Shown here piece after piece: positions 3,800-59,632 of a stretch of DNA of 64,000 nt; position 1 is the stretch's first letter; every line of letters starts with the position of its first letter. This DNA comes from Antitrichia curtipendula (taxonomy: Eukaryota; Streptophyta; Bryopsida; Hypnales; Leucodontaceae), in assembly GCA_951230915.1 (NCBI GenBank), contig OX579638.1:20664696-20728695 (forward strand), in the 5' to 3' direction. A program made the position numbers and the translations under genes. The notes below the pieces were generated by a model. The model was not told where the DNA came from, made no database searches, and worked only from the letters and a program-made list of their open reading frames with translations.

Positions 3800-6689
3800 C
3801 ACAATATAACATGATCAACTCTTTCCTCTCACTAGGTGAAACTAATGATATTATTGATCAGTCTGGTGTATACAGCCTCTTCTTGTAATTTTGTTCCGTT
3901 GATCCTCATTTTTTGTGCAAGTGGTTAGTTGCGTTTCTCCACAAAGGAATTGACCATTACAATAGGATTTGACTTTTGGATGACAGAAACTCATACCTTC
4001 GAAACTTACAAGTCTTTGACGAGATTGAGAAGAACCTGAAGGAGGTGAGACCCGTGCAACTCAAGTGCTCTTCAAGTTGGTTCCTGTACTTAAATTGATC
4101 GTTCGCATATTCTGCCGAAGTTGAGTCTGCAGATAATTCACGTCACTCAATAGATGTATCGTGAGTTGTGGAAGAAGGGAGTATTTTGGGAAGTATGGTT
4201 CAACTTCCAATAAAGTATTTGTATCACTGAAAGCATGTTCAAAAGTACTTTGAATAGGTACAACAACACTCAAGTTTAAACATTACCAAAGGAAATGAAC
4301 CACTTCAAAAGATAGCTAAAAGATAGAAATTTAGTGGTCTTGACAAATCATGGTTATCAATGTACATTTCAATTCAAACTAGTGTAGCTCTTTGTTGTTG
4401 CCACATCCAAAAGAAAAAGAGAAAGAAAAAATTAATTTTTTAATTCATAATTTTTTTGAAAATCCATAACCTTTACATTGTATGTCCACACACCACAAAA
4501 CAAAGCCCGTGCACCCATCCATAGAAAGCACTTTTGAATGGTACCAAGAACGTGACTGAAGGTCACATAGTTAAGGAGATCTCGCTGTAACAAATAAAAC
4601 AAAACAAAAAGCCTCAGGTATGGTATAGATTAGAACAAGTTCTTTGATGTTGATGTATAATATAGTTTTGTAGGAGATTCTCTAGGGCCCACACGTCTTG
4701 CTATTTCTTAAAAGCATGATTTTTTTGGAGTTGCCTAAGTTGCTTGCCAAGCATTAAAAATTACATATCGTGCAATAACTTTTTTTTAACCATGTAGTCA
4801 AAGTTATGAAAATTGTTGTGCTTTAAAGCTACTCCTTAGGCACATGTTGTGTGAAAAATTCAAAAAATATAAATTCCGTTTGTAGTGAGCTCCCCAAATT
4901 GCTATGTTGCCAAAAAAAACCGCAGTTTAGTCCTTTAGGGATTAAGGTTTGGATAATTAAATACATCTAAATCAATGGTTCATCTGTAGCATATTCTTTC
5001 TTCTTTCCGTTGATGTATTAAGCTTACATATTGTTTACTTCAAACTTTTTAAAAGGGTATTAATTAGATGACAGGCACATTTTAAAACATATTGGGTGAT
5101 GGATGATTCAGAGTTTAGCGATGGAGGGCCTACAACAATAATAATGTAAAATGTATGTTCCACATGAGTGAGCTTACACTCACTAATACGTTTTTTCTTC
5201 TTTCCAAAATTGGATGCCCATGGCCTTAGAGCTTGGACAAATCATTAGCAATGGGTTATTGTTACATACAATTTTCTTTTTCAACTTTTGTGTCTTATCT
5301 TGGGCAAGACCCTAAATCCTTCCCATAAATCCTTCCCACAAATAGAGACCAATATGGTGAAAATGTAAGTTCTCTTGGGCAAAAGTAAAATCTTGCCCCC
5401 TATTTTGTGCCATGTCTAGGGTATTTCTTGACCTCTCCCATCTAATTTGGGTCCTCTAATTCAAAATATGAATTCAAAATTTGCAAATTTTTCATGTGTG
5501 AAAGAAAAAAAATTCTTGCATTTTCCCTTGAAAGTAAAGTTCCTGGATTTATCATCCAGCCTATCTTAGTACACTGGTCCTCCACCCATCCACAAAGTCT
5601 TCAAATGAAGGAAAAATTGACCCTCGTGAATTAGAAGTTAGTCACGGAAAGAGACAGACTCATATGATGATAATATTTCAAGTACTCTTGGAAACATCTA
5701 CGGAGTAAGCATGATGTATTGGGCAGCTTGAAGGTAGGTAAACACAGGTGATTCCACAAATTCACGTATGAGGCAACATACATTGAATCTCACCGAATGT
5801 TGAACGAGTGGCAAGTATGTCACATTTCCGCTAGTTTAGAACAACTGAACAGAAAAAGATAGCACAACACGCCCTGAAAGATGACAATAAATAATATGAC
5901 AATTTAACAAGACAGCTGATGAATGACTCTCACATTGAGACAATACAATAGGTTAATTAGGTGTTGTGAAGAAACCCTAACCCATTAATCCATTAAGGAT
6001 CGTGGTTGATTTGGGGGGTGGGCAATCCTTTGTATGGCCAATTGGGAGCAATTTTATAACTTTTGAATGCAAGTGCCTATCGGAGATCTAACCGTACGAA
6101 TGGAAGTGTTGTGCATGATATAGGATTTAGCATTGAAATTTTTGGTGAAGGTACGTTGTAAAGCAGGAATTTTTAGCAAATCTTGGTGTAATTTCAGCCC
6201 CTGTTGTCTTGGTTTTTTCAACCCTCTGGTCACATGCCACCTCAGATAGGCCTAGTTATTGTCCTAAACTATTCACTTCCCAATTCCCCGAACCCGTCCT
6301 TTGCCACATCATCAAATTCATTGACATACTCTCTCTATAAACCAAAAAGGATCCAAATCGACCACAGAATGGTCGACCGGTCCTTAATGGGTTAACTTGC
6401 TCCGTTAATGTCAAAGTTGAGTTCACCATTGTTTTAGAACAATCTCTAAAGTCTTGATTGAAACACATGACTTCTTAAAAGTCAAGAACTAAAAAGGGCA
6501 AGGCAAACAAAAATTCCTTGATTCAAGCATGAATTCAATCTAGCAAACTTTCTAGAATTTTCCCATATTCATCATTGAATGTAAAATGATCGGCAAGTAG
6601 TATTGATGGAATGGAAGTCTCTACGCTCGGAGCTCGTTCCCTGGCCTATTCCTCGGCGCCGAAGTTCCCCGTTAGGGAGTCACCTTTCT
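3800..6689. other. AT-rich intergenic DNA with transposon remnants
   Basis: No coding region is supported. Positions 4735-4941 match the right end of the TTAA-flanked element at 58780-59628. They share CAATAACTTTTT, ACCATGTAGT and TTTGTAGTGAGCT, and here end at CCTTTAGGG followed by a degenerate TTAA. Positions 5310-5560 form a dispersed repeat also found at 7780-8030. Confidence 0.55.
5310..5560 (+). repeat. dispersed repeat, copy A
   Basis: It shares AAAATCTTGCCCCCTATTTTG, a TTGACCTCT block and TTTGCAAATTTTTCATGTGT with 7780-8030 in the same orientation. A more diverged inverted copy lies near 17690-17830. Confidence 0.75.
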
Positions 6690-7382
6690 TACATGGGGCC
6701 TTTAAAAAAAATTGAACTTGGTTTCCTAAATTTATATATCCGTGGAAAGCTTTGAATCATTCCATTTTGATTAACAAGATGAAAGTTATGAAGACTTATA
6801 GTTTGTAGGTAGTTATAGAATCTGTACTCTAAAATAAACTTTGAAGTTATTTATTTAACTCAATTTTCAATATTCTTGAAATAAAATAAAATCTTTGGAT
6901 GGATGTGCTGTAGATTTTTTATTATAACATTATAACCATAATATTTTTCAATTCCATAACTATATTTAACAATTTAGTATTTTAAGTCATATTCTATTTC
7001 TTTCTAGTACTCACTATCTTTTTCAATCATGAACATGAATTTTTCTGTTCGAGTTTTTTCTTATATATTTCCAACTCATGTCTTCAACATATTGTGGAGA
7101 ATAACAAGTCTTAAAATCTACAAATTTTTGTGTAAAAAGTTTGAAAGATGAAATCTAACCATTTAGAAAGAGTTGAAAATACTTCTTTTCAAAATTAAAG
7201 TGATTTGATCTTACAATTGATAAGGTTTCTTATTCTGAAATTTTAGGATGGTGTATTCTAACAACTTAACTAAAGGTTCATATGATTGGATTTGTTAATG
7301 AATAAATAAAGATGAAGATTTCAACCTTGCTTTGGATTTGAGTACTTTGAAGTATTTTGGGGCCTAAAAACCTTTTCAGGGG
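6690..7382 (-). mobile_element. TTAA-family element, right end lost
   Basis: Read on the minus strand, this matches the left two thirds of the element at 58780-59628: TTTAGGCCC, then TACTTCAAAGTACT, then AATCCAAAGCAAGG. The plus-strand edge near 7382 ends in TTTTCAGGGGTTAT, a mutated form of the family terminus. The other end has been lost at about 6690. Confidence 0.6.
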
Positions 7383-9669
7383 TTATATTAGGTTGCTTGT
7401 TTTGTTTTGTTTGTTACATTGAGATCTCCGGGACCGTGCATCTCCCAATTGCATTTTTAAAACTGTCAAAAAATCCTCAATGAAGAGGGGTGCACGAGCT
7501 TTGTTTCATGGTTTTTGAATCTACAACAAAAAAGATATTGAATTTCAAACTTTTTATGAGTAAAAAAAATTAGAAAATTACTTCTACTTTTATTTTTAGT
7601 GTGGCTATGACAAAAGGCACACTAATTTGATATGAAATTTCAAAATAAAGCTTTTTATCTTTAGGACAAGCACTTTGGAGTTGAGTGAAGGGCAAGTTTG
7701 ACATTTTCCTACCAAATATTTATTCCCAATCAAACCTATTCTACCACTATGGTAGGGATAAAAGTACAAGTTATTGTAAACCGCAAGACACTAAATCCAT
7801 CCCACGAAGTATGCCTAGCAAGGTTAAAATGCAAGTTCTTTGCGGTAAAGGTAAAATCTTGCCCCCTATTTTGAGCCATATCTAGAATTTGTTATTGACC
7901 TCTACTAGCTAATTTGGAATCTTTGATTGCAAATATTAATTAAAAATTTGCAAATTTTTCATGTGTGAAAAAATATATATATATATTTTTTATCAGGATA
8001 AAATTCCTACGTTTTCACCATGTTGGTCTCAATTATTGGGACGGGTTTATCATCATGCTTATAAATCCTTGAGCACATTGACACTCAAACAAGTAGAGGT
8101 ATCCATTTCCGATCAAGTACCCATGTGCAACCTATAGGATGCCCTATTTCCCACCAAGGCTAGATTCAATTTCCAACCAAGCTTTGGAATACGTTCCAAC
8201 TAATAAGGTCATGAGACATGTCCCAAAGGTCAAAGTGGTGAGCAAGAAAGCAAGAAGTAGTGAGTAGGAAAGAATTTGGCTAAGATCAGAGTTAGAAGCG
8301 TCTAGTGATTATCTACAGGTCCGCAACACTTTTTGCCTCCCAAAATCCGTAGTAATTTCAGTTCAAGTGATAAAACTACCAATTTTTTTGCAATATCACC
8401 ATCATTTCTATCAATGCAGCTCTGAAAATATTTGCTTTGCCTTGCACGACTCCAGACCATGTCCAGAATTGCTTATTTGATCGGTTATTGGTACCTTAGT
8501 TCACCTTAATAAGTGACAAGTACACTTAACTTTTATTTCTTACTCATACACCAGAAGCAGTCCTTGGATGGGGACTTGAAATGGACCTGAATCCACTTGT
8601 CAACTATTCAGCAAGCTTGTCCAAAACTGATCCATCCCAAGATTTTAATGAATTCAAGTCACAACAACACCCTCACGTAAGATATTGTACTAATGATATT
8701 CTGATCAATTTGCAGTGACAAGTGGCAGTGCATTTGGGGAGACATGTGGCAGTCCACATAGTCTGGGAATGTACTTGGGACGGGTTCACACATTGGGTGT
8801 GCTCAAAATTGGCTCAAATAAGTCACTTAACCCTTAACCTTGGAACGACGTGGGGTGACCCTGGAAATCGTGCATTGTGTAACCGTGAGAGTCATTGGAA
8901 TAAAATAAATCCAAAAGTACTCATTGGAAGTCAAGTTATTGTAGATGTTCTCCACTTTCCTCAAAAAATTCCAAGAATGAATAATTGTAGTTCTGTCCTA
9001 CATTAGAGAATTCCTTATCATTCATTGAACACTTATTGTCTACGGCATCCTTCCTCGGTTAAGGTCTGGGAAAGTCAAATTTTGGATGCATCACCGTGAG
9101 CATTTTTGGTCTTTGCCGTGGACAATACATAAATTGGAGTATATAGTATAATTATGTGATAAAGTTTGTACTTCTATTGAGTAGGAGACAATGACATGTG
9201 GCACTCCCAATTTGAATCATTATTGTATTGTCTAAGGTAGAATAATCCAATGCTGTCAATCACCCAATTTAAACAATTATTGAACCCTCAGTCCTAGTTG
9301 TGTTATTCATCCACCCATTACTACTGAGATTACTACAATCTTAGCAACCCTTTAGTTACAATTATGACAATGCATTTGGGGAGGGGATACATCAGCATAG
9401 TTTTTTACATGGGGTCTATCTACACTTTATCAATTTAGATATAACAAACTTTGAAAAATCATAGAGAATTCATTTCTTGTTGGAATGTCTTGATTCTAAG
9501 CTCAAATGGCTTCTCTCAAACTTCTCAATCTATGAGCAATACATGAGTTGACAAGTAGCTATTCTAAGAAATTGAAGTAGTAAATTTGTTTGGTAATGGA
9601 CATGTTTACCTTATATGTCTTGGAAGCTACAAAATATTCTACATGTATGGTTCTGTATTTGAGCATGAT
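7383..9669. other. AT-rich intergenic DNA, no gene seen
   Basis: Apart from dispersed repeat copy B at 7780-8030, nothing recognisable is present. The open frame at 8722-9006 (94 codons) has no known domain, no supporting splice signals and unremarkable composition, so it is not called a gene. Confidence 0.5.
7780..8030 (+). repeat. dispersed repeat, copy B
   Basis: This is a diverged direct copy of 5310-5560. It includes an (AT)n expansion at 7973-7986 that is absent from copy A. Confidence 0.75.
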
Positions 9670-10066
9670 ACGGTTTGACCATCTCAAGGCCATTTTGTTT
9701 TGTCAAAATAAACTCAAAACTACCAGTTTTGATGCGTTTATCCATAAAAACAAAAAATATATATTTTTAAAAATCTAAGAATAGGGTCTTGTACTTCACT
9801 TGTCTCAAATCATGTGGTAAAAAATTCATAAAGTTTGACCATATAGATTGGAAAATATAAACATTCAAAATTGGAATAAAATATTTTTTTGGATACTAGC
9901 CTGCAATTTCAATTGACTTTGATTTCCATTTGTAGAAACTTTTTGCACTCGAGACTTTGAATTACAAAAAAAATTGAGTTGAAAGTCTAGGAAAATAATT
10001 TCCAAAAAAACACAGTTGATTTTCATTCTTTAAAAAATTGTTAAGTAGAAGTAGGTCCAAGATTAA

Positions 10067-12674
10067 CCCCTAAATGCCCAAGGCACCCAAATCTGGTGTT
10101 TGCCAAACTTTGAATTTAAATAAAACCTAACCAGGTTGCTATTTTCAATATTTTGTATTTTTGAAAAGTTCTTCTTGAAGTCTAGTTTTAGCATTGTAGA
10201 TAACCTAATAGGATTTTTACTTTGAATTTTTTTTTGTGTCTATTTGGTACTATTTTGTTATGTTTTCTGATTTGATGTTCCAAATGGGTGATTTTGTTTG
10301 TTAATAAACCAATTTGGGTCGTCATTACTGTGCGTTTATTTCCAATTCGGAGTACTCAGGAGTGAGCTGCGGATTGGCGATGGGAATCAGCCTAGTTGGA
10401 AGTCAAGGGTCCTAGTTGGCTGAACGGGATGGTGGTTCCGATTTGGAATGTCGGGTGTTTGTAGTCGTGGTCAGGACTGTCTTGTGTGGCCAGCTTGGAG
10501 TTGCGGTCATTTTCCAATTAGGTTTATACGAGCAGTTAAGCAGTTAGGGTTTTGATTGCCGAGTTGGAATCTATGTTGCAAGAGTCCAATTTGTGAGTTT
10601 GTGTTTGTATTATAGAACGGTTATGATTGAGGTTCCTAATTGGCGGTTTGTGGAGTTTTGAGGTGATACCAAGTTGGTTAAGGAACCGCCTGGTTTGAGG
10701 ATTTAAGGCAGAGTTCACCGATTTGGAAGGCACCCACTGTTGAGAGAATGCCAGTGCGAGTCCCAGTCTGAGAGGCTGCGTTTTTATGTTTCTATTTGGT
10801 TTTGTGTATGGTTGTTTGTGAATGAGAAAGAAAGTCCTAATTGGTCGTGTGTGTTTTTTTAATTGTCTGTGCTTGTTCCTGTGGAGGACGTGGAAGCCTG
10901 TTTGTCCGATTTGGTGGTGGCAGTGTTGGACGTGGAGTTCAATTCAGTTTTACGTGAGTGGCAGCTGAGGGTTGCTGTGAAGATCCGATTCGGAATTTAT
11001 ATGAGTGTGGAGCAGAAGAGTTTAGTCCAAATCGGTAGTTGAGTGTCAGCATCGGAATGATGGCTGTAGAAGTTGAATGAGTTAGCCCTATTAGGATTTA
11101 TGCATGATGATGCTGGCCTATTAGGATGTTATGATAGAAATCTGATAGAGATGTTTGGAGTATGAGATCAATTTGGTTGAGATTGCTGTTTAGCCAATTT
11201 GGTATTATGTGGTGGTGAAGACAATTGGGTGCAGAAATTGTGTAGTCCAAGTGGGAGTTTTTAAGACAGTGAACTAATTGGAGTGGATCAGTTAGTTAAA
11301 AAAAAATAAAATAAAAAAATATATTTTTGTAATGGTGATATGTCACCTATTCGGCAAAGTAAAGTATGGATTAAGCAAATTGGCGAAGGATGTGTATGGA
11401 GGTGTATGAGTGCAATTTGTGAGTTAAATTATGATGCTGAGTTTGCCAAGTTGGAGTTTAGCAGTTTGTGAGTGATACCGAATTGGAAGTTGACGGTTGC
11501 ATGAATGATTTATTATTTGATCCAATTCGGGAATTTGGAGTTATGTATGAAGGTCTGATTTATTTGTGAGTGATTAAGGATAAAATTAAGTTTGAAGTTT
11601 AAGTCACAGTGTTTGTGTTAATTCCTACTTGGGTGTTTAAGAGAGCCCATCAGTAATCCAATTAGGAGTTGCAAGACAAAATGAGTGATGGAGAAAATTG
11701 AGAGCAAGATTAGCAATCCCAAGTTGGTGAAAGATTTGGTGGTTCCCTGTGTTGGGATAAAGACAAGTTGGAGAAGTGACGTGTCCTATTCGAAGTAAGA
11801 GACTGGGAGCTGCATTTCCGAGTAGGGAGTTCAAGATTGAACCTGTGCGGAAGTATTCCGATTTGAAGAAAGATGAAAGAATCCAAATTAAGAAGTGAAG
11901 ATCAATTCCAAATGGGTGATACTTGAACTTGGTGGTTTTAAGAGTGGAGTGATAATTTAATTATTAATTATTATGGAAATTTGTAAGGAATTAAATTAAT
12001 ATTAGTTGAAAGTATACATTCCTTGTGTGTTTTAGTTCTTATTTAGTTTGTTCTAGTGTCGTTGTAGAAGTAAGCCTATTAGAATTGCCTCCCTAGGAAC
12101 GAATTAAACTATTTGTTTAGATAATCCGATTAGGAACTAAACTCATCTACAAGCATCAAAAATCCAATCTTGAAAATAAATTATAGTGATTTTTCTATTC
12201 AAGATTTTGTGCAAGGGTACCCATTGCAATCTTGACTTCTCGTAGTGTTGAGAGCTCTTGAAAATGAGCCTCAAATACACTCTAATCCATTGAAAAAATC
12301 ACATTCAAAATTCATTCAAAAAATTGTAAAAGAGATCTTAGGAAGCCATAAATTGAATGGGGTTATACATGCTAGGCCCTTTAACCTCATATTTTTTTGG
12401 TCACCAACTTTTTAGATTTGACTTGTGAAAAGAGGATTGAAAGACTTCACATCACTTTTGCAATTTTAACACCCTCATGGTCAAACATTATAATCTTTAT
12501 TCCATATGTGATATTGTTGTATTTTCTTTTCCTAAGAGATCTCTAACATGTCTAGTTTGAATTTGTACGGTCACAGTTGAAAGAAAATAGATACAAATTA
12601 TCAAAAATGTTGGCTTTTTGTTTAATTTAGAGCAAATTTCAAGATGCTCAAAACAAGCCTTGGGCATTTAGGGG
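10067..12674. mobile_element. 2.6-kb TTAA-flanked nested element (piggyBac-like termini)
   Basis: The ends are perfect inverted repeats of at least 18 bp (left CCCCTAAATGCCCAAGGC), flanked by a TTAA duplication. The uninterrupted site is visible by comparison with the sister element at 38597-39514, which supports TTAA as a true target duplication. A TTAA target with CCC-type ends is the signature of piggyBac transposons. No transposase frame is present, so the element is non-autonomous if it belongs there. The middle (about 10310-12130) is G/T-rich on the plus strand and carries the motif array listed separately. The right-end segment 12230-12640 recurs inverted at about 16950-17270. Confidence 0.8.
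10310..12135 (+). repeat. irregular array of about 40 CCNATTNGG-type motifs
   Basis: Nine-base motifs of the form CC-N-ATT-N-GG and close variants recur every 20-60 bases. Examples are CCAATTTGG (10313), CCAATTCGG (10343), CCGATTTGG (near 10439), CCAATTAGG (near 10515), CCTAATTGG (near 10637 and 10835), CCGATTCGG (near 10987), CCTATTAGG (near 11087 and 11117) and CCAATTTGG (near 11193). The sequence between motifs is not conserved and the spacing is uneven, so this is not a simple tandem repeat. Plus-strand G and T greatly exceed C. No long reading frame runs through it. Confidence 0.75.
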
Positions 12675-13177
12675 TTAAAAAACTAAATTGTTAATAACTC
12701 TAAGATGGGATTGAAACAATATAATCCCAATGGTAAGATTGTTTTAACAAGAAAATTTGACCTTGTCAAACAATTTTCTTGAAAAAATGTAAAAATTGCA
12801 TTCAGAAATGAATCCTACAAGTTATTTTCTTAAAAGATGTTCTAATTGCCCCCAAAATAAGATTGTCCATAACTTTCACATAAAAAATTCAAACGGAATT
12901 AATAATGCTTCCTGTATAGATAAAATTATAATTTATGAGGAATTAATTTTTTTGGTGTGTGAGGAGATTTCTGCCCATCACACCCAAAAAAGGATCTTTT
13001 GAGCCATAACTTTTGCTTCCAGGCACCGATTGAAATAAAAATTATATTCCAGAAAAGCTAATGTGTTTTTCTATCTTCATTGAAAGTTTCAAAAAATCGT
13101 AATGAATATTGAGACTATAGGAGCCTACCCAAAATCTGTTTTGTGCCTCGAGGGGAAAATGGGACTTTAGGTGTTAA

Positions 13178-14726: not shown

Positions 14727-15641
14727 CCCCTAAAGCCTCGTTTGTCCCCTTGGGAGACAATTTGGGTCCGGGTAGGTTTCTGTGACCTCAATTTGTAGAG
14801 AAATTTTTTGGGATTTTTAGAGGTTGTGCGGTTCAGCGAGAGCTTTGTGGATATATAATTTTTATTTCAATTGGTGCCCGAGAAAAAAAGCTATGCCAGA
14901 AATAGAGTTTGGCGGGCAGCACAAAAAAATCACAGAAAGTCAAAATAAATTACTTAAATATTTTTTTCAAAATCTATGTCTTTTGGTCTACATTTGAAGC
15001 TTTGATTCATTCTATTTGGACTAATAATAAAAAAGTTATGGACAATCTTAGTTTTTTGGGGAATCTAAGCATCTTCTTGAAAAAATAACTTTTAGGATTC
15101 ATTTTTGAATGCAATTTTTACAATTTTCAGAAAAAAATTGTTAGACAAGGTTGAATTTGCTTGCTAGAACAATCTCACCATTGGGATTATGGTATTTCAA
15201 TTTTGTCTTAGAGCTATTAACGATTTAGTTGTTCCTTCAATCTTGAACCTACTTCTATTTAACAATTTTTTAATGAGTAAAAATTTAGTGTTTTTTTCTT
15301 GAATTTTTTTTCCTAGATTCTCAACTGAAGTATTCAACATATAAACTTAGAAAATCAAAATCAACAATACAAAAAATTTAAGTTAAATAGGTTCAAAGCC
15401 CAAAAATCTAGTCAAGCAAGGTGCAAAAAAACTTGTTTTCTTCACTTTGAATGCAAATATCTTGCAATCTATTTGGTCAAAGTTTCTGAAATTTCTTGCA
15501 CACGTTCTCATACTAGTCTAGTATAAGATCCTACGGTTAGATATGCAAAAAAAACAATTTTTTATAGTTTTTTGCTCTTTGCAATAGAAGTGGCAGTTTT
15601 GAGTGTGTTTTGATGGAGAAAAGGCCTCGGGGCTTTAGGGG
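14727..15641 (-). mobile_element. TTAA-family element, intact ends
   Basis: The element is 915 bp. It begins CCCCTAAAGCCTCG, ends CGGGGCTTTAGGGG, and is flanked by TTAA at 14723-14726 and 15642-15645. Internal landmarks match 53638-54441 in the same direction and 38597-39514 in reverse. It has no coding capacity. Confidence 0.85.
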
Positions 15642-15986: not shown

Positions 15987-16817
15987 CCCTTGAAGGACCA
16001 TTGTCTCTTTGGGAGACAAATTGGATTTTGGGCATGTATCTTGGTTTCAATTTTTGTCATGAATTTTTGAAACTTTTTATCAAGATAGAAAAATTGATTG
16101 TCTTTGTAAGAACGCAATTTTTTTCAATTGATGCACGGGAACAAAAGTTATGCCAAGATAAGCTCAAAACAACGGAGACCGGGCAACAATTTTAAAATTT
16201 AAAATTTAAATTAATTAGTTTTTTTTCCATAGACTATAATTTTGTCTACATGGAAAGCTTTGATTCATTTCATTTGGATAAGTGATGTGAAAGTTATGGA
16301 CAATCTTATTTTTTGGGCAATCTAAGCATCTTCTAGAAAAAATAACTTGTAGAATTCATTTCGGAGTGCAATTTTTACAATTTAAAAATATTAAAATTCC
16401 ACATGGTTTTACTGCAAGAAAAAAGGGTGTTTTAAGTGTGTTTTTAAGTATAGTCCTAGAGATGAGATATTGAGTAATGACCTTTATGGAGATTTCTAGT
16501 AAAAATTTCTAGTATTTCTAGTAAATTTTTACTGAAAATCTCTATAAAGGTCATTACTCAATATCTCATCTCTAGGACTATACTTAAAAACACACTTAAA
16601 ACACTCCTTTCTCTTGTAGTGTTTAGTTTGCTTGCTAGAACAATTTCACTATTGGAATTAGTGTGTTTTAATTCCATCATAGATATATTAATAATTTAGA
16701 TTTTTCTTCTATCTTCTACCTACTTTTACTTAATAATATTTTTGAGAATGTAGATCAAGTTTTTTTGAATTTTTTTTTTCCTAGACTCTCAACTCAATTT
16801 TCCACTGTAAAGATTAC
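15987..16817 (-). mobile_element. TTAA-family element, truncated, carrying a CACTA-type MITE
   Basis: The left end is CCCTTGAAGGACCA next to TTAA (15983-15986). It aligns with 53638-54441 as far as the CCTAGACTCTCAACTC block, then stops at about 16817, where sequence related to the end of the 2.6-kb element begins. A 212-bp hairpin element is inserted at 16410-16621. Confidence 0.75.
16410..16621. mobile_element. CACTA-type foldback MITE
   Basis: The 212-bp element is almost a perfect hairpin. The right end, read inward, is CACTACAAGAGAAAGG; the left end is TACTGCAAGAAAAAAGG. Both match the standard CACTA (En/Spm) terminus CACTACAAGAAAA. It is flanked by the 3-bp duplication TTT (16407-16409 and 16622-16624), as CACTA elements are. 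The related element at 53638-54441 shows the empty site. Confidence 0.85.
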
Positions 16818-18403: not shown

Positions 18404-19349
18404 TATGCTGAACACCAAAATCACCTTGCATAGCTCACTTCATCCAACAAGTTTAGCATCCATCACAAACTATAGGATAACCATGTAACTATATAAATGT
18501 ATAACTAGGCAATGGTCTTCCCCGTACTGGGAAGAAATTATCTCTCTAGATGCATGGGAGAGACTTTCAAATAGTTAAAGGATTGGGGTTGGTTGAGGAA
18601 TCATATAAGACAATTTTCAAACTAAAGTATCTCAACTGTTACACTTAATCGCCAGTACAAATGAAAGTGATCCACTAGTAGAAAATTTGTGTCCAAATCA
18701 ACAGAAAATGGACAAAAAACTGTTGATCTTATTTGTGTATTTTATGTTGATTTGGACTTGTTGCCTTAGACATTACAAAACAAAAAAGTGTTAATTTGGT
18801 TGTTAATTTGGACAAGCCTAAAAAAAAATTAATTTTTTTTACAACACTGGCCAATTGGCACCCACCATGTAGCAAGTGCCACATCAAAATTTAGGCTAAA
18901 AAGTGCTACGCTGACAAGCCACCTAGGCAGCTGCCACACGGACAGGCTACCTAGGCCATCACCAAGCCAAGGGGGGCCCAAAGGAATTCAAACCTTGCTT
19001 GGTAGGGGAAGGTTCTTGCCCATTGCACCATGCAATGACTTACATGTACATGTATGATTAAAGTTTTTATTTATTTGATTTTTATTAGTTTTTTCCATTT
19101 GGTTTGTTAAGTCAGCAAACTTCAGAGTCCGTTTTGACATAGTAGAATAACTTTTCTCAAAAAAACATTGATCTAAGAAAAGTTGTCAAATGAAGCTAAC
19201 TTTCATCTCCAAAAATCCGTTTGCAATTTAGAGTCTCAAATCAAAAGTTATGGACAAAATTCAAAGATGATGTTTGAAAATGTCTCACAATGTTCCCTAC
19301 AACGTTCCCAACATTGGGAGCGTCACCTTTCTTAGACGGGGCCCTTAAA
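18404..19349. other. intergenic DNA with small hairpin and dispersed repeat
   Basis: A short inverted repeat (TCCAAATCAACA with TGTTGATTTGGA) lies at about 18692-18760. Positions 18855-19045 are locally G+C-richer but show no gene. 19115-19270 matches the dispersed repeat at 3180-3330. Confidence 0.5.
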
Positions 19350-20010
19350 AATAAATCATAGGATGTAGATTGTTTATTACAACATTTTGACCATTGAGAT
19401 TGGCATTTTCTAATTCCATATTTAAATTCTTAACAATTTTGTATTTTGAATCATTCCTTACTTCTTTCTACTTGCTATTTTTTTCCTATATGTTGTACAA
19501 TTTCAAATGATGTGAAAATTTTAAGCATGTAGCCAACTTGTCTGGGAAAAAAATCCAAAGAAGCACGACCATTTTGGACATTTTTTTCATAGAAAAGTGA
19601 GCTTCTAAAGTGCAGCTGCCCAGTTTTACGTAGGGTCAAAAAAACGATTTCAATGATTTTGAATGCTTATATCTTGCAATCCACAAGGTGGAAATTTCTG
19701 AAATTTTTACCACATATTCTCAAGTCAGCATACTAAGGTAACTCCGCCTATGACAGACAGAGTTCTGGACCAGCCTAATTCAGGCCAAAAATTTCTTGTG
19801 AAGTTCAGTTCACAAGACACATGTACTGTTCATGAAATTTTGGGCCTACATTGGGATGGTCCAAAGTTGGCCTATCATAGGCAAAATTACCTTGTGTCAA
19901 AAAAAAGTTATATTTTTCAAAAAAGTTTTTTTCAAAAAATTTGGTACTTGTATTTAAAATAGCAATTCTTAAGCGTTTTTGGTAAAAATATAGTCATGGA
20001 ACTTCAGGGG
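19350..20010 (-). mobile_element. probable TTAA-family element, left end unclear
   Basis: The right edge reads CTTCAGGGG followed by TTAA at 20011-20014. Internal sequence (ATATCTTGCAATCCAC, then ACCACATATTCTCA) resembles the matching part of 14727-15641. The left boundary could not be fixed. Confidence 0.5.
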
Positions 20011-20867
20011 TTAAGGTGGCCCATTTGGGAGTAACATACCCATTTCCAACCCTATTTTTTGACTTTGAATCAACTTGTTTATAATTCAATTTTAAGAAGT
20101 CTACTCACCTTTTGAGATATTGATGGATTCTCATCCTTGAATTCCTACTTTTTGAAGAACAATTTTAATACATTTCTAAAGATGCTAATAAGACTATAAT
20201 ACCTTTTATTTCAAATATTCATATAAAATTCATAAAAAAATAAATTTAAGATAATTTTTTTTTTGCTAAGATTTTCTCCAATAGGTTAATCAACACAAAC
20301 AAATTTATGATGACTCTTATAGTCCATTCTCACCTGGCTTTACGGAGCTTCGGTGGTAAGGACTAAGAATCCTGCGTTCTTTCCGGGAAAAGTGGATTTT
20401 TAGGGTTTTTTATTTTCTGTGAAAAAGCAATTTGGACGGATGTACGTAGGACTGGGCCGTTCACATCAGCGCACTACGTGATTGGTGGGATTCGCATAAT
20501 CTGCCAGGTCGGCCTATAAGACAACCATGTCTTTGTGGTTGGTCACACCGAAAAAGCTTTTACGAGAACTTCTCTTTCACTGCTCTCCGTCACATCCTTC
20601 GAATCACCTCCTGCTTTCTGAAGACAAACATCGAAGTTCCTCAATGTAGTTTCCATTCCACCTGCATTTTGTTATTAGCCAGTTTGAATCTGTGGAGCTT
20701 TGTATTTCTGTTCCTGGTTTCACATTCTATAGAAGCGTTGCTTTCGGGGTTTCGAGCACGTTTCGACTACTGTTGTAGCAATTGCTGCTTTCGAATTTTG
20801 GGTTCCACGCGACATAGTTCCGTTCTTCCTTTACATCGGCGGCCTCTGCTTTGATAATTGTGATCGC

Positions 20868-20985
20868 TGTTTTTTTTCTCTATGTTGAGAAATTGTGCAA
20901 TTTTTTTTCTCTATGTTGAGAAATTTTTCTCTATGTTGAGAAATTTTTTTCTCTATGTTTTTTTTCTCTATGTTGAGAAATTATT
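20868..20985 (+). repeat. ~20-bp tandem repeat upstream of the transposase
   Basis: Five or so imperfect copies of TTTTCTCTATGTTGAGAAAT, separated by variable T-runs, lie in the leader region of the Harbinger transposase gene. Each unit can form a tiny hairpin (TTTCTC with GAGAAA). Confidence 0.85.
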
Positions 20986-21511
20986 TCTTAGAGATACATA
21001 GACTACTTGCCGATACAGTTGACACGACAGAGTTTTCGGTGCAAAAAATTGTTTTGCCGTTCTTTCCCGTTGCCTTTGGAATTTGCCATTTCCATTTCGA
21101 ATTCTTCTTCGAAATCACAGGTGCGTCTTCGCTGCGCTTCCTGATTTTGTGTTTATTAGTCATGTTTGCTTCAATTTTTTTTCTTTCTAGCCATTCCATC
21201 GTCTAGATCATCCAATGCTGTGTAAATGATGAATCCCCAATTCGGAAGCTCCGTCTCTTGCACAATCAATTCTCTTTTAGACATACGGCTTCTTCTCATT
21301 GCTTGTGCCTGTGTCACCCTCAAATTCTACCCACCAGCCTCTGTCAAAATTTGTTGTGGTCTATAGTACAGTTGATGTTCTTCTAGGGTTTCAGCACTTG
21401 CCCCAACTCTATTGCTGCTTCAATCTCATGCTTCAATAGATGCAATGCCATCAATTTTCTGAAAGCCTCTTCTTCTATGTTTTTGTAGGGATCAGAAACA
21501 ACTTCGGTACC

Positions 21512-22852
21512 ATGCCCGGGGACATGAACGCAGAATTGGCCGTTGCTTACATGGCCTGGATGCTTCTGCAGTTTCTCTGTACTCCACAACTTCTACAGTT
21601 ACCTTTGTTGGAGGAGGATGATGACACCGACGCTCTTCTAGCCATTGTGCAGTGTCTTGGGCAACCTAGTCATGATCCGCTACAAGAAATGCAAGCTGCC
21701 TTGCATAATTTTCACTTGTGCACTTCCTTCACTCTTTCTGATGATGACTTGGGGTATTGGATTAAGCCTCGATCTACGACGTGGTTCTCCAGGTTCTTGC
21801 TCACAGAGTACGATGACACCAGGTGGATTCAAATGTTCAGAATGACCAAAAAGGCTGTCTTTGCATTGGCAGATCTCCTTCGGCCACATGTGATGAAGAA
21901 AAACACAAACTATCGACTGGCGATTCCTGTACTCATCCGTGTTGCTTGTTGCCTTTTCAAATTGACTCACGGTGCTTCTCTGTTTATTTGCAGCAAAATG
22001 TTCGCTGTTGGAAAGAGTATTGTATCGTCCATACTTAGGAATGTGGTCCACGCAATCAATGACACCTTGCGGCACAAACTTATATGGCCAATGGGTGAGC
22101 GCATGCGACATACTCAACAAGAGTTCTATGAGCTTTGTGGTTTACCAGACATAGTAGGAGCAATTGACGGTACACATATCTCTATTTCAAAGCCGCAACA
22201 TGTACCTGTCGACTACTTTTACTTCAAGTCCGGTGGTTATACCCTAAACTGCCAAGCAGTTGTAGACAGTCAGAAATGTTTCTTGGACCTTTACCTAGGA
22301 ATGCCTGGTTTGACAAATGATTCTCGCATGCTCCGACGATCTTCCTTGTATGATCTATGTATGCATAACAACTTGCTGCAAAGTGACCATATTGTTGAAG
22401 GTTTCTCTCCGTACTTGATCGGGAATTTGGGGTACCCACTACTGCCTTGGTTAATGGTTCCACACCGATCTGGGGTACATTTGTCTTTGGCTGAGACTCT
22501 TTTCAACAAGAAACTCCGAAAAGGTCGATGTGTGTTGGAAAATGCCTTTGGGATTCTGAAACAAACCTTTCGTGAATTATTGACGAAGTCAGATTTACAT
22601 GTTGCATTTTTACCTGACGTGATTCTCACATGTGCCATTCTGCACAATGTCCTACTCGATCAATCACATGAGGATGTCCAGAATTTGTTACAAGTTCTAC
22701 GCACAGAGGGACTATATGGAGATGTTGATGACAACAATGGGCACGAAGAAGGTGCCAATGAAATGGCAGAGCCTGTAGAAGCTGTTGTTGCCACCGAAAA
22801 ACGTAACAACTTGGGCGTTTTCTTGAGTATGCAACGCGTGCATCCACAGTAG
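21512..22852 (+). CDS. PIF/Harbinger transposase (DDE nuclease)
   Basis: The protein would cut and rejoin the element's ends with its Myb-like partner. The frame is open for 446 codons from ATG 21512. An upstream in-frame ATG exists at 21440, but TTTTTGTAG just before GGATCAG looks like a splice acceptor, so I prefer the later start. Family motifs appear in order: GAIDGTH with the first catalytic Asp (codon 22166), NDSRMLRRS, the LGYPLLPW block, then VLENAFGILK with the catalytic Glu (codon 22538), and an ILHN block. At the second catalytic position the family has G-D-x-G-Y-P; this copy reads G-N-L-G-Y-P (AAT, 22424-22426), one base from Asp. The frame is otherwise undamaged. The conserved D-D-E assignment follows published PIF alignments as I recall them. 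Confidence 0.92.
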   Translation: MPGDMNAELAVAYMAWMLLQFLCTPQLLQLPLLEEDDDTDALLAIVQCLGQPSHDPLQEMQAALHNFHLCTSFTLSDDDLGYWIKPRSTTWFSRFLLTEYDDTRWIQMFRMTKKAVFALADLLRPHVMKKNTNYRLAIPVLIRVACCLFKLTHGASLFICSKMFAVGKSIVSSILRNVVHAINDTLRHKLIWPMGERMRHTQQEFYELCGLPDIVGAIDGTHISISKPQHVPVDYFYFKSGGYTLNCQAVVDSQKCFLDLYLGMPGLTNDSRMLRRSSLYDLCMHNNLLQSDHIVEGFSPYLIGNLGYPLLPWLMVPHRSGVHLSLAETLFNKKLRKGRCVLENAFGILKQTFRELLTKSDLHVAFLPDVILTCAILHNVLLDQSHEDVQNLLQVLRTEGLYGDVDDNNGHEEGANEMAEPVEAVVATEKRNNLGVFLSMQRVHPQ

Positions 22853-23309
22853 GGGAATTGGTAAGTTTCTTTCTTTGCTTCCGTGTTTCTGTGATGGAAT
22901 TGGTGCAATGTGTATAGCAAACCATAGTAGATGCTTGCATTCAATCATTGACGTCAAACTCCCAGGGACTTTTTTGCATCCATAGGTTTCCTAAACTATT
23001 TTTTTTTTATTTCCAATTTTTTTCCAATTTTTTTTTTCTTTTACATATGAATGATATTGACAAACTGCGGTAGTGAAAGTCTATGCTGATTGCTAGTGAT
23101 TGCCTAAACTACCATACTAACACGTATTGTTGCATGACATGTAGGAAAGAAAAGGAGCTGTGACTACACTAGAGACTGAGGTCTGAAGAAGAATGTCTGG
23201 TGCACTTACTTTGAGCTTGATGCCTTCTAGTACATGCATGCAGGTCCGTCCAAGGGTGGGGCTCGAAGCATCGCCGTTGTAGGGTGGTGCTGCCTATAGT
23301 CATTGTAGT
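22853..23309. other. spacer between the two convergent Harbinger genes
   Basis: About 450 bp separate the two stop codons. It contains T-rich stretches at 23000-23040 that could serve 3' processing. No gene is seen. Confidence 0.5.
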
Positions 23310-24749: not shown

Positions 24750-26167
24750 CGGAAGCCTTGGAAGTGCAATGCCCCCTGTGCATGAACCAAAGTGTGAGAT
24801 CCAGAAGAGTAAAAGAACATTAAAACAGAGTTTCAGTTGTGCAGATGGAGCCCTATGGACGAGAAACAACACGGGCGTAGTAGAATTGTCTAGCACGATG
24901 AAGGTAAGTAGCACATCCAAAACTTTGATGTCAACTTCTATGTGGACATTGACTTACTTTGGCATCGGAGTGTGTTTGTTTGTTTTGCAGGTCTAGTTCA
25001 CTACATTGTCATGGACATCAAGGGAAAGAGTGACGTGGGATTGGAAACGTATGAAAATGTAATTGTGAAGCAGACGGTCGAATTGGGTGAGCACCTTTTC
25101 TAGCTAGTGCGTTACATATGCAAGTATTGGATTTTGAAGTTAGAAGGTACTAACCGTTGACAGGCATAGTTGTAGGACGGAGCGGGGTGTTGTAGTTTTG
25201 GGCGTCCAATCGATTCTCCATGAGAAAATTTGCTTGCGGTCCTGCACACAAAGAAGTTTGAAATGAAAAACAAGGCGGCAGGTTGGTGCTTTGCAGAAAA
25301 TGAACGTCAAAATTCTGTTACAATGAACCCGTATAGGCGTAGACTACCATGCACTTAAAGCTTCATTACAAATTCTTTGAATGAAATTGACGGTGTTGTT
25401 CCCTGTCGTTGGCTTGCAAAATGACGGAGAAGGAGTGCTGGAACGGAGCACCCGATGGTGTGGAAACAGTGTCAATGCGGTCATTGCGGTGAAGTGAGAG
25501 GACAAGAACGTCTTTAGAACAACGAACTCCATAAAGGTACAACATTTCGAAAGATTTCAAGTATACATTGCAGATGCTGTCAATGCCGCATGAGAATATC
25601 CACAACTATAACTTTTAGAGACTTGCTGTGAAGTGAACAAACGTTTGTCATGAATTTCTAAAGACAGAAGTTGAACTTGTGCATGCAGGTCTAGAAGTTT
25701 GCCTTGATAGTGTGAAAGAATTGCAGAGAGCGAAATCAGAACATACCTTTGGATCTTCAGAAGTTGTCAATGACGGCGCAGATAGGGTACGTGAACTCAC
25801 TTCCATGATTTTATACACTCTCCTCCCGCACATTCCTTCGGAGTTCATGTCTATGTTTGGCGAAATGAAGTCGCCGAAGTGAAACTTCAGCCAAAATTTG
25901 CGACACCGCTCTTTTGTAGTGGACAGTAATTGCATGGACTACGAAACAGCGTCAGTATCTCTCCGAAATCTTCATTTTCTTTAGATTGTGAATTTAAGTA
26001 AAACTGCCTCATTAAACCGAAATTAACGGAAGTCATGACAATGCTTTTCAGCTAACATCGTGTTTATGGATGTGCCACCGAGGCATCCACGTAGGTTCGG
26101 GTGTAACACCAACACCTGTTCTGAACTGGCATGCTCGAGCTGCCACCTACCACCGGTGTTCCACCCC
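24750..26167 (-). other. 5' region of the Harbinger Myb-like gene
   Basis: The sequence between the Myb-like ATG and the right terminus is G+C-richer than intergenic DNA but holds no convincing frame. On the minus strand a TATAAAAT lies near 25810-25820, a possible core promoter for the Myb-like gene. This is inference from one motif. Confidence 0.4.
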
Positions 26168-26196
26168 CCGTAAGGCCAGGTGAGAATGGACCTTTA

Positions 26197-34006: not shown

Positions 34007-34589
34007 CCCCTAAATGTACAATGTTGTCTAGAATTGATGATTTGAGAAAAATCTTCATAAAGTATTATTTGGAAGAATATTTTGGAATTACTATATGAAT
34101 AAAAGTTGTAGATTTTGATTTTTAGATTCCATCAATGCAATTAGATTCACCAATGCTATGACTAATAGATAAATTAATAATTTGAAAGAAAATTTTCAAA
34201 ATTCCTTTAAAATTTGATTACAAGCTTGCAAAATATATTAGCATATTTTTAGTAAAATTAGTTGGAATGGATTTGAAATGAGGTTCTCGTGACATGGAGA
34301 TTTTTTGAAATTTTTGTGTTCTTTAATTCTATGACATTTGTTGCCAATGCAATTTTGAACTAGATTCAATGCAATTTTGGCTTGGACAATCACTTGACAT
34401 ACTTCCATATTTGTAACTTTAGAAAAATATATGTACTCAAGTAACACCAAATCCAACCATTAGATAGGACAACAATTTAATATAGTATCTCCACAAATTG
34501 AAATGACTATTATGCAAGCATGAATGAGAAAGAAACACAAGTTTAAATTTGTTTGCCATCCCAAAATTAAGCATTAGAGCGTTAGAGGG
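34007..34589. mobile_element. TTAA-family short element
   Basis: The 583-bp element begins CCCCTAAATG, ends CGTTAGAGGG, and is flanked by TTAA at 34003-34006 and 34590-34593. Its interior differs from the 0.9-kb subfamily. The left terminus matches the 2.6-kb element over its first ten bases. No coding capacity. Confidence 0.65.
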
Positions 34590-43100: not shown

Positions 43101-46100
43101 AGGGATAAAGCGCTTTATCTCTTTACTAGTATTTTTTTATAAATAGGTAACTATACCAAATTTTAGAATTTCATTATAGGATCACTATTTTAGCATTATT
43201 TATTTTTGGTTTCAATTGCTATTTTTTTAAATGAATTTTCCAATAACTAGCATTCTATCTCAAAGTTTGCAAAAAGTCTCAATATAACAAATATGGCCTT
43301 AATTTTAAAATCTTGAAGTATTGTAATTTTTACTAAAACAAATAGTTTTATTTATTGTTTATTCTATAATTAATGTTGAAGTTTAACTATTATACCTTTT
43401 TTGTAAAATTCCTTGGGCTTGCTTCATTGAGTGCAAAAAGAGATTCAAGTTCTTTGAGGTCCATCTTCACATTTTCTAATGTTGCATTTGACCAAACTGT
43501 TTTGTGTGTTGGAGTTGTTGTAATTTTATCCCATACAAGTTGTTTTAATTTTGGTTTTACAATAGTGTCTGGAATTGCATGTTCGTCAAACTTTAATAGA
43601 GGTGGTGGAAGAAGGGTAGATTTGGCATCTTTTAATTCAATTTGTGAATTTGGTTTAATGATTTGTTTGGGAGGTGGAGGTGGAGGTGGGGGTGGAGGTG
43701 GAGGAGAGGGTGACTGTAATTTTGAACCATTAAACAACTGAGTTTGCGGTATAAAAGATGATGGAGGTTTCCAACATGAACCCACTAGTTTACAAGTAGA
43801 TGGTAATGGTGGTGGTAGAGGAGGTGGAGGTGGCAATGAACAACGTGAATATGAAGGTGAAACCATTGGAGATAAATTAGGTGATAACAAAAAACTTGAA
43901 TATAAAGGTGCGAGTGTAAGTGAACGTGGTGGAAGTAAAGTAGGTGGTAGTGAGAAATTTGAATGTGGAGGTGGAGGTGGAGGTGGTGGTGGTGGTGGTG
44001 GTGGTGGTGGTGGTGGAGGTGGTGGAGGAGGAGGAATACACATTGATAGTGCTAGTGATTCTTGGCTTATATGTTTGGGCAATATTGTTGTTGATTCTTG
44101 AGTAATTGGATGTAGTTCTGATTTGTTAAGTTTCATGTAGTTTAAAGCTTTTTCATTTATTGATATTGTTTTATATCCTAAAGATAGATTATGATCTTTT
44201 TCATCATGATCTGCTTCTTGTAAATCAACATTGTTAATATGATTTATATCAATATTAATACCATTCAAATCATTTTCTATAAAGTGTGTATGATTTTTTT
44301 GGTTACTAATAATGCTCGATACATTGTACTTATCTATAATGAAAAATGATGTTCTATCCTCCATACTTTTTGTAAGATTGATTTCTTTTTGACACAATGA
44401 TAATGAGCTTGAAGACATTGGTGATTCTTTATTGTTCTTTTGAAGAATTGAGTCCTTTATCCTTGAATCTCTCATATTAACTTCAAAACATGAATCAAAA
44501 TCATTTTTAAATTCTTTGGCATTTTCTTGAGCATTGAAATTATTAGTATTCATTAAAGCTAATGATTTTTCATTTATTTCATTTTCATTTGTATTTAAAG
44601 ACATCAATATGTTGTCTTCCATCCTAGAACAATTGCTTCCATCATTTGGTGTTTTTTTATTTGGTTCATCAAGTTGAATTGATGATTTTGCCATTACCAT
44701 AGTTTCTTTTTTTCCACAAGAAGATGGTAGTTTTGAAGAGATGTTTTGAGAAACAATTATATCATTTACTTCCAAACCATGTTTTGGTAACAAATTGAAT
44801 TCATTTATATTAGTAAATGCAACTCTCTCTAATAAATTTTGTTTATCAGCAATACATTTGAATGATGATAAATGTTGACATGCTTTTTTACATTTATTTT
44901 TGTTAATTGTAAATTTTATAGGCATTGTGGTTAAAGTACTAATAACCTCAAATTTCTTTTTTGATTTGCCTAAATTGTTTCCATGCAAATTTTGAGCATA
45001 ACTTGTCTTGTCTTGTTTTTTCAAAAATCCAATGAGAGAATATATAAAAGTTGCAATTATAGCTAATTGAGAGTTGTGTTTGAGGTATAACTTTTTGAAA
45101 TTGATAAATCCTTTTAGAATAGTAGACATTGCAATTTTTTCTTCACACGATTTTTTGTTTGATATACTCGATTCAATTATTTTATCTCCATCTTCTTCAA
45201 GCGTTCTCAAAATGTAGTGATAATGATTATCAACTAGATTACTTGATTTATATTTTAATTTTCTACAAAGTCTATTTGCAAACATTTTGGATTTGCATTT
45301 AGTTGATACTTTTACTTTCAAATGTCCTTGCAAAAACCTTTGTCGTTGTTTCCAATTTTTTATGAATTGCCTTGAATATTTTTCAAATGAAAGCTTGTAT
45401 GTATCATGTACATGTTTATTGTAGAAAGACAACTTGTGTGATTGAGATGTTGAGTTTTGAGGGGTTTTAGATTTTTTGTTGATACAAGATGTTGATGCAT
45501 TACTTTTAGTTTCTAAAAGCAATGTATTGTTTAAATTTGATTGATTTAAATAATTTGTTTTTGCTATATTGCACTCTGCAATGTTAATTTCATCATTAAC
45601 ATCAAATTGATGTTTCCAATAATCAGGTATAAAACAATTGATTTTAGTGTCATATCCATTTTCATCTAATCCACAAGTATTAAAGAAATTTTTATTTGTA
45701 TCATTTGATTCTTGATTCATTGAAGTAAAATTGTTATGAATATGAAATGCATGCATAAGCTTATTTGGCATATTATCACTCTGAATTATACATTCTTCTT
45801 TATTGTCATCATAACCATCTATGTGATATTGTTTATTAGTATAGCGCAAGTACTCAGCTTTTTGGTTATTTTTCATACATTGTAAAACATTTTGAAAACA
45901 TTGGAAGGTATTTTGATTTTCTTTAAATTTTTGTTTAAGATCTATATATGAACTGCAATACAAATATTTATTTGCATTATTCTACAATGTTGTGTTGTGA
46001 TTTGTATTTTGGTTATTTATAAGTATTTTTTTATTGTAAAATTAATATAAAATATATTTATTTGATAAACATTTTTTATTGTTAGTAACATTTTATATTA

Positions 46101-52648: not shown

Positions 52649-53389
52649 TCCCTAAAGTCTCCAAACCATTTTTCTATCAAAAAACATTCAAAACTGCCAT
52701 TTCTATTATAAAGAGAAAAAAACTTTTAAAATTGTTTTTTTGCATATGTATTTGTAGGATCTTTTAACAGACTAGTGTAAAAATGTGAGGAAGAAATTTT
52801 AGAAACGTTAACCACATATATTGTAAGATACTTGCAGTTAAAGTGAAGAAAGAAAGTTTTTCTGTACCTTGCTCAACTAGATTTTTTGGCTTTAAATCTC
52901 CTTAGCTTAAATTTTTGCAATTATCATTTTGGATTTCTAAATTTTGATGTTTAGCAATTGACTTGAGAATCCACAATTTAAAAAATAGCACTTCATTCTT
53001 GCTCTTAAAAAAATTATTAAGTAGAAATAGGTTAAAATTTAAAAAACAAACTAAACCATTAATAGCTCTAAGATGGAATTAAAACACTCTAATTTCAATG
53101 GTGAGATTATTTTAGCAAAAATCTTAACCTTGTGAATCTATTTTTATTGAAAAATTATGAAATTGGATTTACAAATGACTCCTACAAGTTATTTTTCACT
53201 AGAATTGGGGCTTATTAGGCCATAATTTTTGCTCTCAATAATCAATTGAAATAAAATTTATATTTCTAGAAAGCTAATATATTTTTCTATCTTCAAAATT
53301 TAAAAAAAAAAATCACAACAAATATTGAGACCATGCAAGCCTATCCAAAATCCATTTTGTCACATGAGAGAACAATAGTCCTTTAGGGG
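52649..53389 (+). mobile_element. TTAA-family element, older copy
   Basis: The 741-bp element begins TCCCTAAAGTC beside TTAA (52645-52648) and ends GTCCTTTAGGGG beside TCAA (53390-53393), a mutated target copy. Its interior parallels 38597-39514 with more substitutions and deletions. No coding capacity. Confidence 0.8.
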
Positions 53390-58779: not shown

Positions 58780-59628
58780 TCCTAAAGGTATTCAATATTT
58801 TTAGGCCCAAAACTACTTCAAAGTACTTAAATCCAAAGCAAGGCAAAAGTCTTCATCTATGTTTATTCATTAAAAAATCTACCCATAGGATCCTTTAGTT
58901 AACTTGTTAGAATACACCTTTCTAAGATTTCAAAATAAGAATCCTTACTAAATGCATGAGCAAGTTGCTTGAATTTCAAAAAGAAGTATTTTCAACTCTT
59001 CCCAAATGGTTAGATTTCATCTTTCAAATTTTTTACACAAAATGTATAGATCCTACAACTTGTTACTCTCTATAATATATTCAAGAAGTAAGTTGGGAAT
59101 ACATATGCAAAATTTTAAACAAAAATATTTCATATTCATGCTTGAAAAAAATAGTAAGTAGAAAGAAGTAGAGTATGATTTGAAATACTAAATTGTTAAG
59201 AATTTAGTAATGGAATTGAAAAATGCCAATCCCACTAGTTGTAACATTGTAATAAACAATCTATATTCTATAATTTTTTTTTTTTCAAAAGTCTCTTTAA
59301 TTTTCACTAACTACACGCAAACTAAAACTCCTCATAACTATCATCTCATTAATCAAAATGAAATGATTCAAAGCTTTCCATTTATGTATAAATCTTGAAA
59401 ACTGATTTCAAATTTTCTTTTTTTTAATTCTCAAGCAATGAAATTTACATGTAATGCAATAACTTTTTAACCATGTAGTTAAAAGTTATGAAAATTGTTG
59501 CACTTTAAAGCTACTCTTTGGGTATATTTTGTTTGAAAATTTCAAAGGAAAAACAAAACAAATTCCATTTGTAGTGAGCTGCCCCTAATCATTACATTTC
59601 CAAAATATGGTGTTTGGACCTTTAAGGC
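58780..59628 (+). mobile_element. TTAA-family element, third subfamily
   Basis: The 849-bp element begins TCCTAAAGGTATT, ends GGACCTTTAAGGC, and is flanked by TTAA at 58776-58779 and 59629-59632. Pieces of the same subfamily occur at 4735-4941 and, inverted, at 6690-7382. No coding capacity. Confidence 0.75.
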
Positions 59629-59632
59629 TTAA

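Follow-up and report, generated by a model that had tools for sequence, protein, structure and literature searches.

The window analysed here, a 64,000-nucleotide stretch of the Antitrichia curtipendula assembly (contig OX579638.1), carries a series of short, TTAA-flanked copies with CCC...GGG ends that are almost certainly non-autonomous miniature inverted-repeat transposable elements (MITEs) of the piggyBac superfamily, probably mobilised by DDD-transposase elements of about 5 kb that reside elsewhere in this moss genome. A TTAA target that is duplicated upon insertion, CCC ends, abundant and recently spread miniatures, and many intact-looking transposases enclosed by like ends are all observed. 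A piggyBac DDD transposase encoded by the longer elements would bind the CCC...GGG ends, cut the miniature out and insert it at a TTAA, which would be duplicated in the process. The first-pass annotation of the window had proposed a piggyBac-like family, and this interpretation is supported by the TTAA flanks, by the transposases found between CCC...GGG ends and by two related empty sites.

Miniature copies, their ends and their flanks

Within-window BLAST distinguishes two families and two types seen once each. Family A comprises 14727, 15987, 38597, 52649 and 53638 along with an interrupted copy at 9703-13173; family B consists of 58780 together with the fragments at 4748, 6704 and 19347; the single types are N (10067-12674) and M (34007-34589). 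The individual features, including a long terminal repeat (LTR) nested in N, are as follows (TIR, terminal inverted repeat).

4748..4941, plus strand: right-end piece of a family-B miniature, with its TTAA
6704..7382, minus strand: truncated family-B miniature, flank ATAA
9703..13173, minus strand: family-A miniature interrupted by N, end CACCTAAAG at 13173, TTAA at 13174-13177
10067..10194, plus strand: left part of the roughly 0.65-kb piggyBac-type miniature N, with TIR CCCCTAAATGCCCAAGGC, left TTAA at 10063-10066, uninterrupted relative in locus L246
10195..12151, plus strand: solo LTR of Ty3/Gypsy type nested in N, TG...CA, 1957 bp, AGCAT duplication, 30 CCNANTNGG
12152..12674, plus strand: remaining right part of N, bounded by TTAA at 12675-12678
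14727..15641, plus strand: young family-A miniature A1, both flanks TTAA
15987..16817, plus strand: family-A miniature A2, TTAA at left only, right end lost
16411..16620, no strand assigned: hairpin MITE nested in A2, with ends of the CACTACAAGARAAAGG type, outside the TTAA family
19347..20010, no strand assigned: truncated miniature, B-like at 19347-19485 and A-like at 19637-19722, with TTAA after its right end CCCCTGAAG at 20010
34007..34589, plus strand: miniature M, both flanks TTAA
38597..39514, minus strand: family-A miniature A3, both flanks TTAA
52649..53389, minus strand: family-A miniature A4, flanks TTAA and TCAA
53638..54441, plus strand: family-A miniature A5, both flanks TTAA
58780..59628, plus strand: family-B miniature B1, both flanks TTAA

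The eight copies to which the first-pass annotation had assigned inverted ends were recovered with all coordinates exact, and its description of their flanks, as TTAA or one base removed from it wherever both ends persist, also held: six copies have TTAA on both sides, 52649-53389 has TTAA and TCAA, and 15987-16817 indeed keeps the left TTAA alone. To these eight copies' ends we added those of the partial copies at 13173, 4941, 7382 and 20010, leaving aside the right end that 15987-16817 has lost and weaker candidates such as 8831, 33797 and 42684, for a tally of 19 ends. Their flanks read TTAA in 17 cases, TTGA in one and ATAA in one, with about 1.25% per end expected by chance from base frequencies; C occupies end positions 1, 2 and 3 in 15, 18 and 18 of the 19, respectively (5'-CCC...GGG-3' type), and the consensus is CCCCTAAAG. 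Homology between copies, where it reaches an end, breaks off no more than a few bases from the TTAA. The pattern TTAACCCCTAAA taken bare, with up to two mismatches, occurs 24 times in the window versus 11.3 expected, a count reached in one of 100 shuffles; since a bare 12-base end motif exceeds chance only modestly over 64 kb, it is the paired ends, the homology and the whole genome on which the case is built.

The genome searched, here and below, is the window's own 400-Mb assembly, in which the window maps to 20664696-20728695, and first-look numbers denote candidates rather than confirmed copies. The end word CCCCTAAAGGACC is present 7,585 times (its reversed control, 4) and TTAACCCCTAAAGGACC 6,648 times (reversed control, 0), so that 87.6% (6,648/7,585) of the CCCCTAAAGGACC words are preceded by TTAA, against about 1.25% expected. 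A1 has 8,894 first-look candidates, 40 of which were scored: the window copy itself and 39 others, all full length, spanning both TTAA positions and 96-97% identical, which argues for recent spread. When 12 of these 40 were fetched, every one had TTAA on each side, with unrelated outer flanks; the flanks of young copies, whose inspection had been suggested from the first, conform to TTAA in all 12, as do those of 87.6% of the exact end words genome-wide. The right part of N yields 4,021 first-look candidates, the 39 other scored ones being 92-93% identical, and B1 yields 5,357, of which 40 were scored.

Three of the six family-A left ends can fold a hairpin just inside the TIR (3, 3 and 11 of 300 shuffles were as stable); the other three left ends and the four right ends tested have no such hairpin. 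Two related segments, 8827-9027 and 33793-33979 (72.6% over 135 bp), may begin with TTAACCCTT ends and possibly represent a further TTAA family; M starts just past the matched part of the latter. Six window MITE copies are low in CpG (observed/expected 0.07-0.44) and CHG (0-0.59). The corresponding CpG and CHG values are 0.67 and 1.25 in the nested LTR and 0.71 and 0.99 in the exon region of an STN7-like gene, and a formin-like frame at 43390-45981 (0.20 and 0.27) and the segment 47000-52000 (0.37 and 0.33) are depleted as well. That past methylation lies behind the depletion of the MITEs is a guess.

Transposase-bearing elements and TTAA duplication

PF13843 (DDE_Tnp_1_7) has 907 first-look candidates in the genome, and all 116 that were scored exceed the curated cut-off (E 5e-80 to 1e-69), 72 of them free of internal stops by hand count; none of 14 control genomes gave a hit. 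Twenty of the 116 were fetched as 9.9-kb stretches (198 kb in all). All 20 keep the catalytic DDD triad, as aligned to D268, D346 and D447 of P0122, which is 99% identical to the Trichoplusia ni (T. ni) piggyBac query, and the domain was found in each of 10 frames scanned. The one protein compared with the PDB, that of L254, hits piggyBat at 5e-37 and T. ni piggyBac at 3.8e-25. The 20 transposases share 32-99% pairwise identity, near-identical pairs included, and their frames span 458-1,261 aa from stop to stop. Seven frames place 280-762 residues (from the first Met) ahead of the domain, with extension parts common to several lineages; in six (L245, L250, L252, L254, L258 and L260) the frames reach 982-1,261 aa with 502-762 residues ahead of the DDE domain, and these long N-terminal extensions match no Pfam family.

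A long copy with a DDE_Tnp_1_7 transposase between TTAA-CCC...GGG-TTAA ends, which the first-pass annotation had recommended looking for, is present in 13 of the 20 fetched loci, where the paired ends surround the gene at a spacing of 4,960-5,759 bp; the pairing search required TTAA, and this count is therefore no independent evidence for that sequence. GGAC-N7-GTCC, starting at bp 18, marks seven of the 13 transposase-side ends and none of the 13 opposite ends, and the word totals 10 across all 198 kb of fetched loci; because L248 and L256 are near-identical, the seven palindrome-bearing ends represent six lineages. Within the remaining loci, L251 and L257 hold their transposases inside long perfect inverted repeats (14/14 at several pairs of TTAA spaced by about 6 kb).

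Among the fetched elements, the autonomous end nearest to those of the window families is the 3' end of L258, best for four of six tested A ends (13-15 of 20 bases) and for both N ends (15-16 of 20), the left end of N giving the top match overall at 16 of 20. We infer that one of these transposases, or an unfetched relative, acted in trans to move families A, B, N and M, and that the reaction would follow the chemistry of animal piggyBac. Scans of viral-contig and genome-contig collections with the family-A core DNA returned no match.

TTAA is duplicated at insertion, as seen at two related empty sites, one for a transposase-bearing element and one for a family-A miniature. The L260 element (4,960 bp) occupies one of the two arms of a hairpin MITE; the empty arm, CTTTTAAGTAAGG, has a single TTAA, and the occupied arm reads CTTTTAA, then the element, then TTAAGTAAGG. 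The MITE that holds this piggyBac element is likewise of the CACTACAAGARAAAGG type. In L272, an A copy is inserted in a B-like miniature, and its flanks, joined with one TTAA, match positions 19390-19543 of the window, a related empty site within the truncated miniature at 19347..20010, over an ungapped 154 bp at 87% (score 154 with one TTAA versus 145 with two). Compared with B1, the same joined flanks score 147 with one TTAA and 138 with two.

Several observations weigh against the piggyBac assignment or its details. The nested insertion of N into 9703-13173, which the first-pass annotation had taken to show TTAA duplication, proved ambiguous: against a profile of five relatives, the pre-site scores 262.3 bits with two TTAA, 260.1 with one and 254.7 with none, a slight lean toward no net duplication whose margin is too small to use, and the relatives have no TTAA at this position. 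A third and more distant relative is of no help in choosing between one and two TTAA at the L272 site (84 versus 83). Inside the 20 transposase loci, the A-type ends belong to older copies and have exact TTAA in 11 of 19 cases by script and 14 of 19 by model position; decayed flanks are thus common in old copies. Paired TTAA-CCC ends were not found in seven of the 20 fetched loci, and none of the 20 holds a source element with ends identical to those of A, B, N or M. Among the 13 transposase-side ends, folded hairpins stand out just in L245, L254 and L263 (z -3.0, -2.4 and -5.0). Finally, no piggyBac coding remnant was found in the window, where a profile built from the 114 proteins shorter than 700 aa in a list of 120 gave a best E of 2.1 and the best single-sequence hit, 0.028, was taken as chance.

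Other superfamilies could produce similar copies. Kolobok-type elements likewise duplicate TTAA and share the target observed here, but according to an excerpt of PMC9587614 their ends are 5'-RR...YY-3', whereas the present ones are 5'-CCC...GGG-3'. With a genome rich in piggyBac transposases besides, a Kolobok origin is highly improbable. Sola3 elements are TTAA-specific, too. Sola elements are known in moss (Sola1 in Physcomitrella, as stated in part of PMC9033089), yet piggyBac transposases between CCC ends make a Sola3 source unnecessary, and we consider it even less probable than Kolobok. No better founded is the proposal that the copies are PIF/Harbinger or Tc1/mariner MITEs that merely prefer TTAA and duplicate three (TTA/TAA) or two (TA) of its bases. 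Both superfamilies are present: a PIF transposase is encoded at 21440-22852, PF13359 has 744 first-look candidates and a Tc1-like element lies near 31.9-33.2 kb. A duplication of 2 or 3 bp would, however, free the outer bases of the flank, which are near-fixed over the 19 ends (T 18/19, A 19/19), and four bases are duplicated at the L260 and L272 empty sites; the Tc1-like element also has TA-CAGT ends and the PIF-like element has different inverted repeats. By eye, the PIF/Harbinger element extends over about 20018-26266, with inverted repeats, a 470-aa transposase at 21440-22852 and a Myb/SANT frame at 23958-24953; the Tc1-like element (about 31908-33180, TA-CAGT ends) contains a transposase fragment at 32217-32714 and is split by a 200-N gap at 31978-32177. 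The idea that TTAA belongs to the element itself (TIR TTAACCCC...) and is not duplicated accommodates the slightly better score of the nested window copy without net duplication (262.3 versus 260.1 bits) but is contradicted by the two clearer empty sites, L260 and L272, and is as improbable as a Sola3 source. The window copies are thus best explained as piggyBac MITEs.

A nested Ty3/Gypsy LTR and the remainder of the window

The longest copy listed initially, 10067-12674 (2.6 kb), is a 0.65-kb miniature split by an unrelated 1,957-bp solo LTR of the Ty3/Gypsy superfamily. The insert, 10195-12151, has TG...CA ends and is flanked by a 5-bp duplication, AGCAT; the L246 miniature of the same kind lacks it, and a relative of the LTR carries gag and pol. 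A reading of 10067-12674 as a long element with coding remnants was set aside: its six frames have no Pfam match at E ≤ 1, its three-base periodicity is 1.1 versus 2.4 and 6.9 in two coding controls, and the solo LTR accounts for the surplus length. The view that the CCNANTNGG-bearing stretch is captured host DNA, with CpG and CHG unlike those of the element ends, was likewise replaced given the LTR boundaries and the 5-bp duplication.

The solo LTR contains 30 exact copies of the palindromic 9-bp motif CCNANTNGG, against 0.3 expected and six in the remaining 61.4 kb of the window; it is the commonest of the six-base gapped words tested there (spans 6-13). The 30 sites comprise 19 distinct 9-mers in 30 distinct flanks and are explained neither by tandem repeats nor by codon phase. 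Two related LTR copies in L264 contain 30 and 25 sites, and the 2.3 kb that separates them contains none; one of the two has an exact duplication (TATGT), the other an imperfect one (CTTCA/CTTCC). When the three LTR copies are aligned in pairs, the core bases of the motif are 83-89% identical, compared with 64-74% for the background and 56-68% for the free positions; since the full motif is kept in the partner at just 13-17 of 22-29 aligned sites, sites also turn over.

A 14.2-kb relative (L277:1177 to L278:5479) is 68% identical to the window LTR over 1008 aligned bases. Its LTRs are 100% identical over 1,922 bp and enclose gag, reverse transcriptase, RNase H and integrase, and its sites number 29 + 62 + 29 = 120, where about 2 would be expected; the 2.3 kb outside contain no site, and six control words of equal make-up occur 0-4 times in any part of the element. 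Six of the seven sites in its gag frame share one codon phase, which makes a coding cause possible there; in the other three frames the phases are mixed. Downstream of pol lie two open frames of 158 and 734 aa, neither with a Pfam match and the latter also without a PDB match. Scans for similar arrays gave at least 235 loci in viral-contig and genome-contig collections, the richest of which look tandem; among the matches listed, none has the mix seen in the window, the best reaching eight distinct, differently flanked sites within 2 kb.

We tentatively suggest that this Ty3/Gypsy family may carry a self-recognition code, in which the dispersed CCNANTNGG sites (about 30 per LTR and 120 per element) would be bound by a putative dimeric protein, of the element or of the host, that keeps the element unsilenced or marked; on the evidence of the arrays this is a possibility we would not favour. 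A role like that of the VANC target motifs (described in parts of PMC5735166 and PMC10398659) is a guess. If true, the sites would be the retrotransposon counterpart of the Arabidopsis VANC anti-silencing targets, palindromic rather than tandem-spread. In excerpts of PMC5735166, the VANC motifs of Arabidopsis VANDAL elements are similarly numerous and short within a transposon family and of low density outside it; CCNANTNGG differs from them in being palindromic and non-tandem, in its location in a Ty3/Gypsy retrotransposon and in having a binding protein that is putative.

Elsewhere in the window, the gene at 61.2-64 kb encodes, after splicing by hand, an STN7-like kinase whose best named relatives are mosses: Physcomitrium patens is 80% identical across the full query and Ceratodon purpureus 90% across 75% of it. 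A further entry reaches 91% over 82%, and named liverworts among the matches listed reach 69-72%. Two clusters of 34-bp tandem repeats lie at 36302-37108. Searches of the window against Rfam and for tRNA genes gave no hits.

Comparison with known piggyBac systems

T. ni piggyBac has CCC-type ends. The moss elements share with it and with Myotis piggyBat the TTAA target and its duplication, the DDE_Tnp_1_7 domain and three catalytic Asp residues; they differ in their moss host, in their size of 5.0-5.8 kb and in six frames with long Pfam-less extensions. Most animal piggyBac ends begin with CCC, according to part of PMC10813416. The moss arrangement, with a subterminal palindrome on one end, resembles that of piggyBat, whereas T. 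ni piggyBac has palindromes on both ends; in piggyBat, just the left end has imperfect palindromes, the first of which binds the two C-terminal domains of the dimeric transposase (both from a portion of PMC11707139). The miniatures, too, have animal parallels: animal piggyBac MITEs, such as Daphnia mPok and those of corals, are short, non-coding and piggyBac-related like those in the moss, but unlike them the moss families have about 4,000-9,000 first-look candidates each in one genome.

The occurrence of piggyBac in plants is not new. The initial remark that there is little evidence for the superfamily in land plants overlooks an angiosperm study in which a passage lists PiggyBac among MITE superfamilies (PMC10004981), a fern repeat table with 1,230 PiggyBac copies (PMC6890710), and a survey that counts PiggyBac among the superfamilies present in every taxonomic group it covers (PMC4438587). 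What was not found described is a moss population that is diverse, apparently recent and accompanied by thousands of miniatures: among the matches listed from the open-licence literature, judged by titles and the beginnings of abstracts, there was no description of a native moss piggyBac, and native plant piggyBac elements in general are hardly described in the searchable literature.

Diverse transposases, many of them in open frames, together with young miniatures make native plant piggyBac activity directly testable. In rice, animal piggyBac is already employed to excise markers cleanly; as of 2017 it was still untried in Physcomitrella (from an excerpt of PMC5505980). The moss genome offers transposases adapted to a plant. 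In the angiosperm case the class was likewise assigned from the duplication and the ends; the passage in PMC10004981 names the class only, whereas the moss has a transposase source in its own genome and a TTAA duplication visible at related empty sites. Other plant miniatures with TTAA flanks and CCC ends are thus worth checking for a piggyBac source of the kind found here.

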